A stretch of 64,000 nucleotides of DNA from Acholoe squamosa. Lineage: Eukaryota; Annelida; Polychaeta; Phyllodocida; Polynoidae. Position 1 is the stretch's first letter. The number at the start of each line of letters is the position of its first letter. Under the pieces are notes generated by a model that was not told where the DNA came from, did not search any database, and was given only the letters and a program-made list of their open reading frames with translations. Where the stretch lies: positions 54,127,777 through 54,191,776 of the forward strand of contig OX439050.1 in assembly GCA_949317995.1 (NCBI GenBank), written 5' to 3'. The position numbers and the translations under genes are program-made. Shown piece by piece: positions 8,298-42,100 of this stretch.

Positions 8298-9600
8298 CAG
8301 CCAGGTTCAGTGTGCAATTGATATACTCCTATACACCAAGCATGCGATATCAAGTTAACTTTTTTAACTCGACAATAGTACATGCAGTTTCTGTAGGCGT
8401 CCCAGAAAGCTGAAAAGAATTATTTGTACATTTTAACACTAGTTATACAGTGGTCAACAGTGTCTGGTTCAGCTCCTCTAAAATAACCAATGTTTTCTGC
8501 AGGTATTATTTCCCAAAGGAAATTCTCTGAACATCCACATGCTATAGAACTTATATCATTGTCAGGTGTTATAGAAGAAGCATGACTATATGAAGCAACA
8601 CTTTGTAAAACTGGACGCATGTAATAGTGGAGTTTCTGTGGTTTGCTCCACAAGCATAGGTTCTAAACTTTCCATGTTAAATCATAGCTTAAATCTAACC
8701 AGATACTGAAAATCTGGTGAACGTGACGCAATGTGTAAAGAAATCTGGTACCACTTTCTTCAATTCCAAGTTAATTTCTTTAGCATCAGATTTTTATTTT
8801 TTGTGGTGAACATGTATAGCGTTCACTTTTGTGAAAAGTTTTTTGGATTTTTTTTTGGGTGATACAGTTCACTTCTTTTATTTTTGTCAGTTTTATTTCA
8901 TGATACAGTACACATTTTTACCTTTTTGTTCATTTGAACAAATGTTCAGTTTAACACTGTTTTCTATGGGAAAAAATGTTCATTTGAACAAATGTTCATT
9001 TGAACAAATGTTCAGTTTAACACTGTTTTCTATGGGAAAAAATGTTCATTTGAACAAATGTTCATTTGAACAATTGCTCAAAAAAACATTTTCCAGTTTA
9101 ACACTGTTTTCTATGGGGAGAATGTTCATTTGACCAAATGTTCATTTGAACGATTGTTCAAAAAAACATTTTCCAGTTTAACACTGTTTTCTATGGGGAG
9201 AATGTTCATTTGACCAAAAGTTCATTTGAACGATTGTTCAAAAAAACATTTTCCAGTTTAACACTGTTTTCTATGGGGAAAAATTTTCATTTGAACAAAT
9301 GTTCATTTGAACAATTGTTTAAAAAAACATTTTTCAGTTTAACACTGTTTTCTATGGAGAAAAATGTTCATTTGAACAATTTGTTTAAAATTGTTAAAAA
9401 AAACAACTTTTTCATTCAACAAAATGTACAACTGGAAGTGAAACTAGAAAAAGAAACCATTTTTTTTTATATAGAAAGGGGTAGGGTGCTTACACCGTCT
9501 TCACACACTTGTCTCTTTATGTACTGATAGATTAGACCTTGTTTTTTTTTTAGAGTAAGTGGTAACGCTGTGGTGAACTACTTTAAATCCTTTGTTGACT
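8298..9600. other. Unidentified 1.3-kb insert splitting the LINE RT
   Basis: The two RT pieces on either side belong to one polymerase domain but the stretch between them shows no RT similarity. It contains a short minus-strand open frame (8653-8420) of unknown nature and the minisatellite at 8935-9400. Exact insertion ends and target duplication were not resolved. Confidence 0.5.
8935..9400 (+). repeat. Minisatellite, about six copies of a 65-83-bp unit
   Basis: The core GTTTAACACTGTTTTCTATG recurs near 8949, 9014, 9097, 9177, 9257 and 9337. The spacing is first about 65 and then about 80 bp. Copies are joined by variable numbers of the short palindromic motif GTTCATTTGAACAAAT. The resulting plus-strand open frame is a repeat artefact. 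Confidence 0.9.
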
Positions 9601-31821: not shown

Positions 31822-32173
31822 TGTAGGGGCCGGCATCGTTGTATATATATTAGTGCGCTTCATCCGAGAGATGTATTTGTGTGGTGCTCGTTCCTTCTAT
31901 GCCAACCAGGTGTCGCTTCGCGATACCCGTTTGGTACAAGAGGGGGCAGCACCACGCCTTGCATCCAGCTCCTACTAAGGAGCCGGATGAACCGCAGAAG
32001 GGGACTGGACATAGTCCAGTCCAGACGTGTGTTTTGTACTTACAATAAGGCCTACCCGAGCGGTAGGAAGTCTGGGGCTTTGCCCAACCCGAACTACTCG
32101 TGTTGTGTTGGTATCTCTAGTGTTAAGCAAGCCAAAGAGCCACCCAACATATAAGTCGAAACGAACCGTTACA
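31822..32173 (+). repeat. 5' LTR (352 bp)
   Basis: It starts TGTAGGGGCCGGC and ends ACCGTTACA immediately before the PBS. A TATA-like GTATATATATTA lies near 31842. A 21-bp perfect inverted repeat around GGACTGGACATAGTCC (about 32003-32024) is conserved in both LTRs. Confidence 0.93.
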
Positions 32174-34455: not shown

Positions 34456-35955
34456 ATGACTAACCGAACGGGCTCAGTGATTTACTTAAAACGTGGCGAC
34501 AGTGTTGCGGAGATGAGTTCGGTAGAACACGTCGCCGAGGCCAAGTTTAATAAACCATTGAACCCTGTTAGTAAGCATCCATTGGATGAAGAATTCCAGA
34601 AACTGATTGATAAATCATATTTACAGAATACGGAGGACAAATGGCACCTAGGGAACCTCCTGCGAAGGTACGAGAGTGCTTTCGGTAGGGAAGGAGGACC
34701 CGTAGGTAAAACCGATAAGGTGTTGCACACAATAGATGTTGGCGACGAGAAACCTTTCAAGATCCCGTATCGTAGACTTCCTCTCAAGAAGAAGTTAATA
34801 TGCTAGCAAGAAATACAAAAGCAACAGGAACTGGGGGTAATCGTGCCTAGCTCGAGCCCTTGGTCCAGTCCCGTTTGTATGACTACAAAGAAAGACGGTA
34901 CAATCCGTTTCTGTGTCGATTACCGGAAATTATACGGTATGACAAAGAAGAACTCGTATCCTCTACCAAGGATAGACTAGACGTTAGATAGCTTGGGTGG
35001 GAACCAATGGTTCAGCACCCTGGATTTACAATCCGGGTATTGGCAAATACCTATGCATCCCGATGACATAGAGAAAACTGCTTTCTCTAGCCATTTGGGA
35101 CTATTCGAGTATAATGTCTTGCCCTTCGGATTGTGTAACGCTCCAGCTACGTTCGAGGCTATGATTGAATCTCTACTCAGTGACCTGCTGTGAAAGAAGT
35201 GTTTGGTTTACTTGTACAACGTTGTCGTATTCGGCAAGTCGTTTAAGGAATGCCACGCGAACCTGCAGCTGGTACTGGATCGGATTCTAGCCAATGGCCT
35301 AAAACTCAGGCCTAAGAAATGTAACCTGTTCAAGAAAACAATTACATACTTGGGAAGGATCATAACCCCTAGCGGGTTGAGTGCAGATCCAGAAAAGCTG
35401 GAAGCGGTTGAAAATTGGGAAAGACCAACGAGTGCTAAGGAGGTTAGATCATTTCTAGGATTTTGTTCCTACTACCGTGATTTTATACTGAATTACTCTC
35501 GTGTAAGCTTCCCCATGCAATGCTTAGCTCACTGGACCCCAGGTAGGGCTTGGGAACCATTCCCATGGACCAGCAAGCAGGAAGAATCTTTTAACAAAAT
35601 AAAAGATTTGTTTAGGAATACACCGGTATTAAAATATCCTACTCCTAAAGGGCATTTCGTACTAGAGACCGATGCGAGCAACGATGCTATAGGGGCGGCC
35701 CTCTCTCAGGTCCAGAATGGAGTCGAAGTCCCATTAGCATTTGCTAGCAACACGTTAAGCAAAACCCAGCGTAATTATTGTACCACTAAAATAGAACTTC
35801 TCGCCGTAGTGGTGTATACGAAGAAGTTTAAGCACTTCCTGTGGGGAACTGACTTCACTTTACGGACCGACCATTCGTCTCATGTATTTTTGATATCATG
35901 TATTTTTGTCATGGACACCAAACGAGTGGCCATTTTGGAAAGAAAAGATCTATAG
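34456..35955 (+). pseudogene. pol: Reverse transcriptase and RNase H, three stops, catalytic YLDD changed to YLYN
   Basis: RT blocks: [45 protein letters not shown] (motif A Asp present), NVLPFGLCNAPATFEAMI and LVYLYNVVVFGKSF. The last should be YLDD but reads YLYN (35209-35220), abolishing two catalytic Asp. Stops at 34804, 34978 and 35191. RNase H: LETDASNDAIGAAL, KIELLAVV, LRTDHSS. The frame then meets the TRIM insertion in the integrase zinc finger after HGHQTSGHFGKK. Confidence 0.92.
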
Positions 35956-35975
35956 AGTGTCTGCAGAGACGATAC

Positions 35976-36203
35976 TGTAGGGGTCGGCGAAAACGTTTAG
36001 GGAATCCGGGATTCGAACCCGGGACCTCTCAGCCTTCAGACGATTGCTCTACCACTGAGCTACTACCCCGTACAACGTTTTCTGCCTTCCACCCACGCCT
36101 GGATCGGTGTGATACCGACAGGGGACATGTGACTACCCGGTGACCCACCTCCTCAGGTCGGCCACCCTGGGCACGGGGACTCACATAGTCACGTTCCCCT
36201 ACA
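35976..36203 (-). repeat. TRIM-like LTR, left copy (3' LTR in element orientation)
   Basis: 228 bp with TG...CA ends; contains the tRNA-like unit at 35998-36069. Six differences from the right copy by eye. Confidence 0.88.
35998..36069 (-). tRNA. tRNA-like sequence in left TRIM LTR (degenerate)
   Basis: A-box-like TAGCTCAGTGGTAGAGC, D stem GCTC/GAGC, T arm CCGGG-TTCGAAT-CCCGG containing the B box GGTTCGAATCC. The loop CTGAAGG would place anticodon GAA (Phe-like), but the anticodon stem pairs poorly. The acceptor stem has two mismatches. Probably a promoter relic rather than a working tRNA. Confidence 0.7.
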
Positions 36204-36366
36204 CAGACCCCAACCAGCTTCGACCACCGAATTAACCAGCACTGAGTCACACACATGGTTCGCACGGCCTGTGGGCACCCCAGCGCTAGCAGGTCGAAGC
36301 GCTTGCTGTATCACACCAACCCAGGAACCGAGTTCCGTAGCCCCCCCCTCACGCGGGTCAGGACTA

Positions 36367-36382
36367 CTCGGTTTCCCTACCA
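36367..36382 (-). other. TRIM primer-binding site matching its own LTR tRNA
   Basis: The plus strand reads CTCGGTTTCCCTACCA, one base before the right LTR, so the minus strand is complementary to a tRNA 3' end. The embedded LTR tRNA ends CCCGGTTTCCCTA, which matches in 12 of 13 bases before the added CCA. Confidence 0.7.
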
Positions 36383-36383
36383 C

Positions 36384-36611
36384 TGTAGGGGTCGGCGAAA
36401 ACGTTTAGGGAAACCGGGATTCGAACCCGGGACCTCTCAGCCTTCAGACGATTGCTCTACCACTGAGCTACTTCCCCGTACAACGTTTTCTGCCTTCCAC
36501 CCACGCCTTGATCGGTGTGATACCGACAGGGGACATGTGACTACCCGGTGACTCGCCTCCTCAGGTCGGCCACCCTGGGCACGGGGACTCACATAGTCAC
36601 GTTTCCCTACA
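36384..36611 (-). repeat. TRIM-like LTR, right copy (5' LTR in element orientation)
   Basis: 228 bp with TG...CA ends; contains the tRNA-like unit at 36406-36477. Confidence 0.88.
36406..36477 (-). tRNA. tRNA-like sequence in right TRIM LTR (better preserved)
   Basis: As in the left LTR, but the acceptor stem GGGGAAG/TTTCCCT pairs at all seven positions counting G-U. With the D and T stems intact, three of four arms fold; only the anticodon stem is weak. Confidence 0.75.
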
Positions 36612-37324
36612 ATACTACTGGCCCGGTATGAGAAGTGACCTACTTCGGTGGATTGCAACTTGTCCTGATTGTTGTAAAAACAAGCCAGGACCAGGCCTAG
36701 GCAAGCTACCCTTGTCCCAGGAATTGTTTGGTGTCCGCTTTGCTCGAGTAGCAATCAACATAATCAGCGGATTTAAAACGACGCCTAGAGAGAACACTTG
36801 TATGATGGTCGTCACAGACTATTATACTAAGTACACTCGGGTGTTTCCTCTTCCAAACCACAAAGCCGCTACATGTGCCGAAGCATTTGTAAAAGGCTGG
36901 GTGCTACATTTGGGTGTACCCCTCACGATGCACAGTGACCAAGGAAGAGAGTTTGAGTCGGAGTTATGGCAGGAAATGTGCCATTACTTAGCAATTTGTA
37001 AGACCCGAACCAACCCATACCGACCACAATCGGATGGTCAGGTGGAAAGGTTCAATAGGACTTTGATACAAGTACTAAAGCTTATTGGTTATAACTAGGA
37101 AGCACCCTGAGGCGAAGGTAGCTTCTAAAAAGAAGACTACGGCCCCGAAACGGCCTAATCGTAAGAAATGGAAAAATGTCTCGCTGAGTGAAGGCATTAC
37201 ATATGGGGAGGGTCTCGCCGTGGCTAGGCACGACCCGGAGAAGGCCGTATATAAAGCCGGGAAAAATATAATGGTAACCCAAGGCGTTAGACGCAGTCCT
37301 CGGTTGAGGTCCGCCTTTACCTAA
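36612..37324 (+). pseudogene. pol: Integrase core and pol C-terminal tail
   Basis: After the TRIM the HHCC finger is completed by CPDCC (LLRWIATCPDC). The core has MMVVTDYYTKYTRVFPL (Asp), MHSDQGREF (Asp) and QSDGQVERFNRTL (Glu), a complete D,D,E. The frame stops at 37098. The C-terminal DNA-binding part seems deleted, and a different frame (37085-37324) gives a basic tail (KKKTTAPKRPNRKKWKN ... VRRSPRLRS). Confidence 0.9.
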
Positions 37325-41869: not shown

Positions 41870-42100
41870 TGTAGGGGCCGGCATCATTGTATATATATTA
41901 GTGCGCTTCATCCGAGAGATGTGTTCGTGTGGTACTCGTTCCTTCTATACCAACCAGGTGTCTCTTCGCGATACCCGTTTGGTACAAGAGGGGGCAGCAC
42001 CTTGCCTCGCATCCAGCTCCTACTAAGGAGCCGGATGAACTGCAGAAAGGGACTGGACATAGTCCAGTCCAGACGTGTGTTTTGTACTTACAATGAAGGC
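41870..42100 (+). repeat. 3' LTR, truncated
   Basis: Aligns with the first 230 bp of the 5' LTR, then homology stops at about 42100. The missing about 120 bp and the absent right target duplication suggest a deletion that stopped about 115 bp from the P4HA-like exon 11 donor. Confidence 0.92.

Follow-up and report, generated by a model that had tools for sequence, protein, structure and literature searches.

Miniature LTR elements of Helenus type whose primer-binding sites match the tRNA-like sequence of their own LTRs

The element in the window and its family

The window, i.e., the whole stretch of 64,000 nucleotides that was analysed, contains at 35976-36611 a complete miniature LTR element of 636 bp on the minus strand, its orientation being set by the primer-binding site (PBS). 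Given this orientation, the 5' LTR lies at 36384-36611 (-) and the 3' LTR at 35976-36203 (-). Both are 228 bp long, begin with TG and end with CA, and repeat comparison found them identical at 222 of 228 positions (six differences). They enclose a non-coding interior of 180 bp without a T4 run (36204-36383, -), and the target-site duplication ATAC flanks the element at 35972-35975 and 36612-36615. These coordinates confirm the repeats, the interior and the 4-bp duplication reported in a preliminary description of this DNA.

A tRNA-like unit with A and B boxes occupies positions 135-206 of each LTR and is recognized by both ARAGORN and Rfam (RF00005). The unit of the 5' LTR (36406-36477, -) scores 56.5 bits and has a fully paired acceptor stem, two G-T wobbles included, while that of the 3' LTR (35998-36069, -) scores 47.6 bits and has two acceptor mispairs. 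The preliminary description, which placed such a unit in each LTR with full acceptor pairing in one, was correct on this point. T4 runs at 36398-36401 (-), a few nucleotides behind the tRNA end of the 5' LTR, and at 35990-35993 (-) in the 3' LTR are possible Pol III terminators. Before the tRNA, GAAAACGTT (36482-36490, -) can pair with AACGTTTTC behind it (36397-36405, -), and a second type of the family, type B below, has the counterpart GAGAACGTC/GACGTTTTC; in types A and B, these sequences possibly extend the acceptor stem.

The PBS, TGGTAGGGAAACCGAG, is located at 36367-36382 (-), one base behind the 5' LTR. It agrees at 15 of 16 positions with the complement of the LTR tRNA's 3' end plus CCA, a count that includes the CCA, which the LTR does not encode. 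No second place for this 16-mer with at most two mismatches was found on either strand of the 64-kb window, so the match between the PBS and the same tRNA, claimed in the preliminary description, is unique there. A G-rich stretch before the 3' LTR (36204-36215, -) is a weak candidate for a polypurine tract; it includes pyrimidines in the window copy and reads GGGAGGAG in type D. With a length below 1000 bp, an LTR pair and a short non-coding interior, the element has the size and plan of a TRIM.

The element is inserted antisense in the pol of a Gypsy element, with the RNase H side at 35203-35955 and the integrase core at 36628-37098. The LTRs of this Gypsy (31822-32051 and 41870-42100) are 94.8% alike and start with TGTAGGGGCCGGC, similar to the plus-strand start of the miniature element, TGTAGGGGTCGGC; the two elements run in opposite directions. 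A PBS common to both was considered and rejected, since the candidate PBS of the Gypsy, TGGTGCCGTGACC from about 32175 (identified by eye), differs. Elsewhere, the stretch 6394-29745 of the window has integrase (rve) and DNA polymerase B-like ORFs between two inverted arms, each about 400 bp long and 89% alike; this element starts with AGTAGTATATAC, has flanks TATAAA/TATAAT and, judging by its sequence, looks like a Polinton/Maverick. A tandem repeat with an 80-bp unit, about five copies and 91% matches is present at 8974-9379.

When the genome (1.48 Gb, 63 contigs) was searched with the window element, at least 44 matches were obtained (40 scored of 2182 first-look candidates). For parsing, 39 loci were taken from the genome in addition to the window's own, and two LTR matches 100-260 bases apart were required. 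The LTR-interior-LTR plan is present in 42 of the 44 matches listed, the window's own included; of the remaining two, one is a 76% relative reading as type B and one a piece of 88 bases. In two loci there are two units each, and one of these loci (L024) is a tandem with shared LTRs. Exact flush 4-bp duplications flank 29 of the 42 copies, whereas shuffled flanks averaged 2.1 and never exceeded 9 in 5000 shuffles. Within copies, the LTR pairs are 92.1-100% identical, which indicates that some copies are young. The junction pattern of LTR end, one base and TGG occurs at 2163 places in the genome, against 36 for the reversed pattern. Among the first 100 of these places, 94 are PBS-like by a loose criterion, with one doubtful. 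One LTR/PBS junction pattern searched in viral contigs gave no match.

The preliminary description had named a lack of further copies, or copies made only of tandem tRNA genes without TG...CA ends, as findings that would speak against an LTR element; neither is the case. Although the internal A and B boxes would suit tandem tRNA genes or a SINE, this reading is hardly tenable and was rejected given the TG...CA ends, the duplications in 29 of 42 copies, the PBS adjoining the 5' LTR and the LTR pairs in 42 of the 44 matches listed. A SINE2, with a tRNA head, a LINE-type tail and no LTRs, was likewise discarded, LTR pairs being present. The window element is almost certainly a non-autonomous miniature LTR retrotransposon of Helenus type, Helenus being the name given by Kojima in 2024 to elements with tRNA-like LTRs in fungi, animals and a plant (PMC10886601).

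Origin and signals of the LTR tRNA

According to the sequences of the LTR tRNA and the PBS, types A (the window's), B, D and G are distinguished. Compared with host tRNA-Ala(TGC), their LTR tRNAs are identical at 56 (A), 54 (B), 59 (D) and 61 (G) of 72 positions, which points to host tRNA-Ala as their likely ancestor. The Phe and Ser labels that ARAGORN assigned to types A and B were rejected, given these tRNAs look Ala-derived with altered anticodon arms. Types A and B, in which the anticodon arms are poor or degenerate, score 44-57 bits in Rfam, against 66-69 bits for type D. The acceptor stems of the four representatives pair at 7 of 7 positions, with wobbles, despite variation at nt 6, 67, 69, 70 and 72. 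5S rRNA was not found in the LTRs: Rfam scans of the window and eight loci gave tRNA matches only.

The preliminary description proposed that the LTR had captured its primer tRNA by read-through or template switching. Judging by the layout, plus-strand synthesis running on into the primer should leave the tRNA antisense and outside the LTR end; the LTR tRNA is sense and inside the LTR, which makes a read-through origin unlikely. The insertion of a tRNA-derived SINE into an LTR, proposed for Helenus (PMC10886601), fits better, the source here being tRNA-Ala.

All 63 tRNA matches scored genome-wide (of 97417 candidates), e.g., L048-L108, lie in LTR sequence of such elements, part of them not seen in complete elements. 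Each is followed by a T run and the LTR end, three having one LTR-end base changed. It was through these matches that type D was reached. The tRNA gene counts and annotation of such genomes can thus be inflated by LTR tRNAs. As for the genuine tRNA-Ala 3' end, 36 of 50 places are in a single array (G000:C15:5103929-5141531), mostly 0.9-1.2 kb apart.

The Pol III-type signals that the preliminary description saw in the LTR recur in the family. Besides the A and B boxes, 79 of 84 LTRs have a run of at least four T shortly after the tRNA (four T in 76, five in 3, none in the remaining 5). Other T4+ runs number three in 42 elements, none of them in an interior; T content alone predicts about 0.6 per element for the part before the terminator plus the interior. 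A T4 of this minimal kind may let transcription end in a short tRNA product in some cases and run on to the second LTR in others.

Change of the LTR tRNA and the PBS in step

The tRNA 3' end and the PBS are GGTTTCCCTA and TGG-TAGGGAAACC in type A, GGTTTCTCCA and TGG-TGGAGAAACC in type B (L037, L038, L040 and L042-L047, with LTRs 84-87% like the window LTR), GGTGTCTCCA and TGG-TGGAGACACC in type D, whose LTR tRNA is tRNA-Ala(TGC)-like, and GGTGTTTCCA and TGG-TGGAAACACC in the type G representative. The PBS varies between types where the tRNAs vary, so these sequences show that PBS positions 67, 69, 70 and 72 change with the tRNA. Over the 14 positions that run from the added CCA to nt 63, the PBS of every type agrees fully with the tRNA of that type (14 of 14), compared with 10-13 for the tRNAs of the other types and 10-12 for host tRNA-Ala; the comparison uses one representative per type, with the L143 tRNA and the L139 PBS standing for type G. 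The latter type rests on three copies only, whose tRNA has GTGTTTCCA: L139 shows a full 14/14 match between PBS and tRNA, L140 combines that PBS with one tRNA change at nt 64, and the PBS of L143 has an extra base.

A further sample was chosen by genome position and PBS context, blind to the tRNA, although parsing presupposes a tRNA-like 3' end. It comprises the first 30 of 749 places, with a pattern requiring CCGAG behind the variable part; 29 places were parsed, including L136, whose tRNA end is a hairpin copy. Over nt 73-64, 282 of 290 positions match the place's own tRNA, against a mean of 256 and a maximum of 273 in 100000 shuffles. Given the sampled copies are related, this value describes the agreement and is no strict probability.

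Counted as changes, four positions or more have shifted jointly in the LTR tRNA and the PBS, and it is very probable that the PBS tracks the LTR tRNA. In the copies read, the CCA behind the tRNA is not encoded in the LTR and the PBS nevertheless starts with TGG, which indicates that a mature tRNA shaped the PBS.

One alternative is that these are ordinary Helenus elements primed by a host tRNA, the LTR tRNA serving only as Pol III promoter. The PBS match would then reflect a shared tRNA-Ala origin, or the primer would be an unsampled host tRNA, and a host tRNA gene ending in CTCGG plus TTTCCCTA, TTTCTCCA, TGTCTCCA or TGTTTCCA is called for. The closeness of the LTR tRNAs to host tRNA-Ala (54-61 of 72 positions) agrees with this reading, as do the animal Helenus elements reported with host tRNA primers (Kojima 2024, PMC10886601). 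Nt 62 of the PBS also fits a U62, which is present in only 1 of 77 LTR tRNAs with a PBS junction, and a host tRNA with U62 would be the simplest alternative. However, in each of the four types the LTR tRNA suits the PBS better than host tRNA-Ala does, and each of the four PBS types would need a host tRNA sharing the changes of the LTR tRNA. Among 27 human tRNA 3' ends, the best agrees at 6 of 8 acceptor positions. Moreover, two PBS copies described next fit their own LTR tRNA over 18 nt. Host priming is therefore unlikely, if still the strongest of the alternatives.

The unbroken match from CCA was measured in 96 distinct tRNA/PBS junctions of the loci collected. It is 14 nt long in 47, 12-13 nt in 24, 16 nt in one, 18 nt in two and shorter in 22 (places without a PBS and parsing slips included), and lengths of 15, 17 or above 18 nt do not occur. 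The 16-nt match is that of L105, whose tRNA has T62. In the two 18-nt cases, L060 (type D) and L148 (type A, picked because its PBS reads CCGGG), the PBS is an exact copy of the own LTR tRNA. Both matches end before A58. Within nt 59-60 the two tRNAs differ at nt 60 (A60 in L148), and each PBS follows its own tRNA. L060 is a young element with 100% identical LTRs. A narrow genome-wide 18-nt pattern matched L060 only, being too narrow to find L148 with its A60.

Either the primer or the RNA can be the source of an inherited PBS (PMC1797187), and HIV-1 plus-strand strong-stop synthesis ends before m1A58, after 18 nt of tRNA (PMC13191261). With an 18-nt match to the own tRNA that stops before A58, the PBSs of L060 and L148 look rewritten from their own LTR tRNA; such copies are rare (2 of 96 junctions).

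Other observations count against the LTR tRNA as primer, among them the degenerate anticodon arms and lower Rfam scores of types A and B. In 89 of the 94 PBS-like junctions, an A at PBS nt 62 faces C62 of the tRNA, a mismatch that regular rewriting from the primer would be expected to remove. The 3' part of the PBS, CCGAG, can pair with CTCGG about 35 nt downstream in single-sequence folds of types A, B and D, in an arrangement different in each type; as a guess, this pairing may hold A62 in place. Mismatched pairs also exist: L065 has, at 708, a D tRNA with a B PBS. Among 20 junctions picked mostly for odd PBSs (L155 being read by eye), nt 73-64 match only in L139, L147, L148, L149, L157 and L158, and the other 14 have at least one mismatch, an indel, a deletion (L156) or no PBS (L152). 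L065 and L156-L158 share a similar LTR end and PBS and have different interiors (CCGCTTCAACTTG, CCGAGCATCCTAACGC); they are a possible lead to an autonomous partner.

Six A and six B copies were compared for divergence, which is 23.8% in the tRNA, 20.2% in the part behind it and 21.1% in the spacer and PBS start, against 7.3% in the LTR part preceding the tRNA and 5.1-7.8% in the remaining interior. This concentration indicates that the tRNA-U5-PBS stretch behaves as an exchangeable block, and hence that a single exchange of the block, instead of a series of events, can account for the change in step between A and B. Matched pairs are spread by such exchange, and they could originate through rewriting from the primer.

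A match could also arise without any primer role if the tRNA 3' end and the PBS formed a short hairpin whose arms were kept alike by DNA-level template switching. L136 has lost the 3' half of its LTR tRNA to a 19-nt sequence perfectly complementary to the PBS and its flank, the outcome expected of such an event, and shows that LTR and PBS can undergo hairpin correction. Yet this explains neither the PBS TGG opposite a CCA that is not encoded nor the stop of both long matches exactly at nt 59, and as an account of the family it is improbable, more so than host priming. It is very improbable that the match lets a 3' fragment of the LTR tRNA block or control the PBS instead of priming. 3'-tRNA fragments that target endogenous retroviruses through their tRNA dependence are described (PMC7472051), but an element gains little from its own inhibitor and nothing favours a fragment role over priming.

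Proposed mechanism and comparison with known systems

From the layout, the T runs, the PBS and the duplications we infer Pol III transcription, processing, primer use and a helper partner, as follows. The LTRs would hold an internal Pol III-type promoter, i.e., the tRNA derived from host tRNA-Ala, and Pol III would start there. A stop at the T4 just behind the tRNA would give a short pre-tRNA, which would be trimmed and receive CCA, becoming the primer of reverse transcription, while read-through of the weak T4 to the second LTR would give the template RNA. The primer would pair with the PBS of the same element, about 23 nt behind the tRNA, and a Gypsy-type element would supply the enzymes, as the preliminary description also proposed; the 4-bp duplications, which Kojima 2024 links to Gypsy in animals, fit this. 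The PBS and the LTR tRNA would stay matched by inheritance as one tRNA-U5-PBS block, and the PBS would also be rewritten now and then from the primer, keeping the match.

Judged on sequence evidence, it is likely that the LTR tRNA actually primes reverse transcription. The whole account, comprising Helenus type, LTR tRNA as primer, read-through template and Gypsy-type enzymes, is given a probability of roughly 0.63. We put at slightly better than even odds the wider reading that the family encodes its own primer, with one LTR Pol III tRNA gene yielding both primer and template, and with primer gene and PBS forming an exchangeable cassette free of host primer tRNAs.

A tRNA borrowed from the host is the usual primer of LTR retroelements and retroviruses. 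Some LTR elements, e.g., Tf1, self-prime (PMC6934838). If the proposal is true, an LTR-encoded matching tRNA would be a third way of priming, i.e., a self-supplied primer, and these elements would be a natural test of PBS/primer co-evolution and primer switching. No report of an LTR-encoded tRNA matching the own PBS was found in a literature search that covered few subscription papers.

Among known systems, Cassandra shares a small-RNA gene with a Pol III promoter in its LTRs; in contrast to the present elements, this gene is 5S rRNA rather than tRNA, the hosts are plants, and PMC10886601 describes no match between the LTR RNA gene and the PBS for Cassandra. Ajax elements are likewise animal TRIMs with Pol III-type promoter sequence in the LTRs, but it is 5S-derived, the PBS is for tRNA-Leu and the duplications are of 5 bp (PMC10886601). 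The biv-TRIM of bivalves is an animal TRIM with terminal repeats of about 200 bp and tandem arrays, whereas, in the part of PMC6934838 consulted, no LTR tRNA is described and no canonical PBS was found.

Helenus is the closest system. It shares the two LTRs with a tRNA-like A/B-box sequence, the PBS behind the 5' LTR, a size below 1.3 kb, the non-coding content, tandem forms and many predicted tRNA genes as a by-product, and in animals also the 4-bp duplications (PMC10886601). Published Helenus elements also have a PPT, for which the G-rich stretch is a weak candidate here, and in animals Gypsy is named as their likely helper (PMC10886601). Its primers in bivalves are Lys, His, Ile, Pro, Glu and Ser tRNAs, and section 3.6 of the same paper found no complementarity between LTR tRNA and PBS, concluding that the LTR tRNA makes no contribution to the initiation of reverse transcription (PMC10886601). 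In the present families, by contrast, the tRNA is Ala-derived, and the PBS and the LTR tRNA match and change together. At the sequence level, these families contradict the statement of non-complementarity for at least one animal genome. The overall plan is thus already published, and the tie between PBS and LTR tRNA is the new part.
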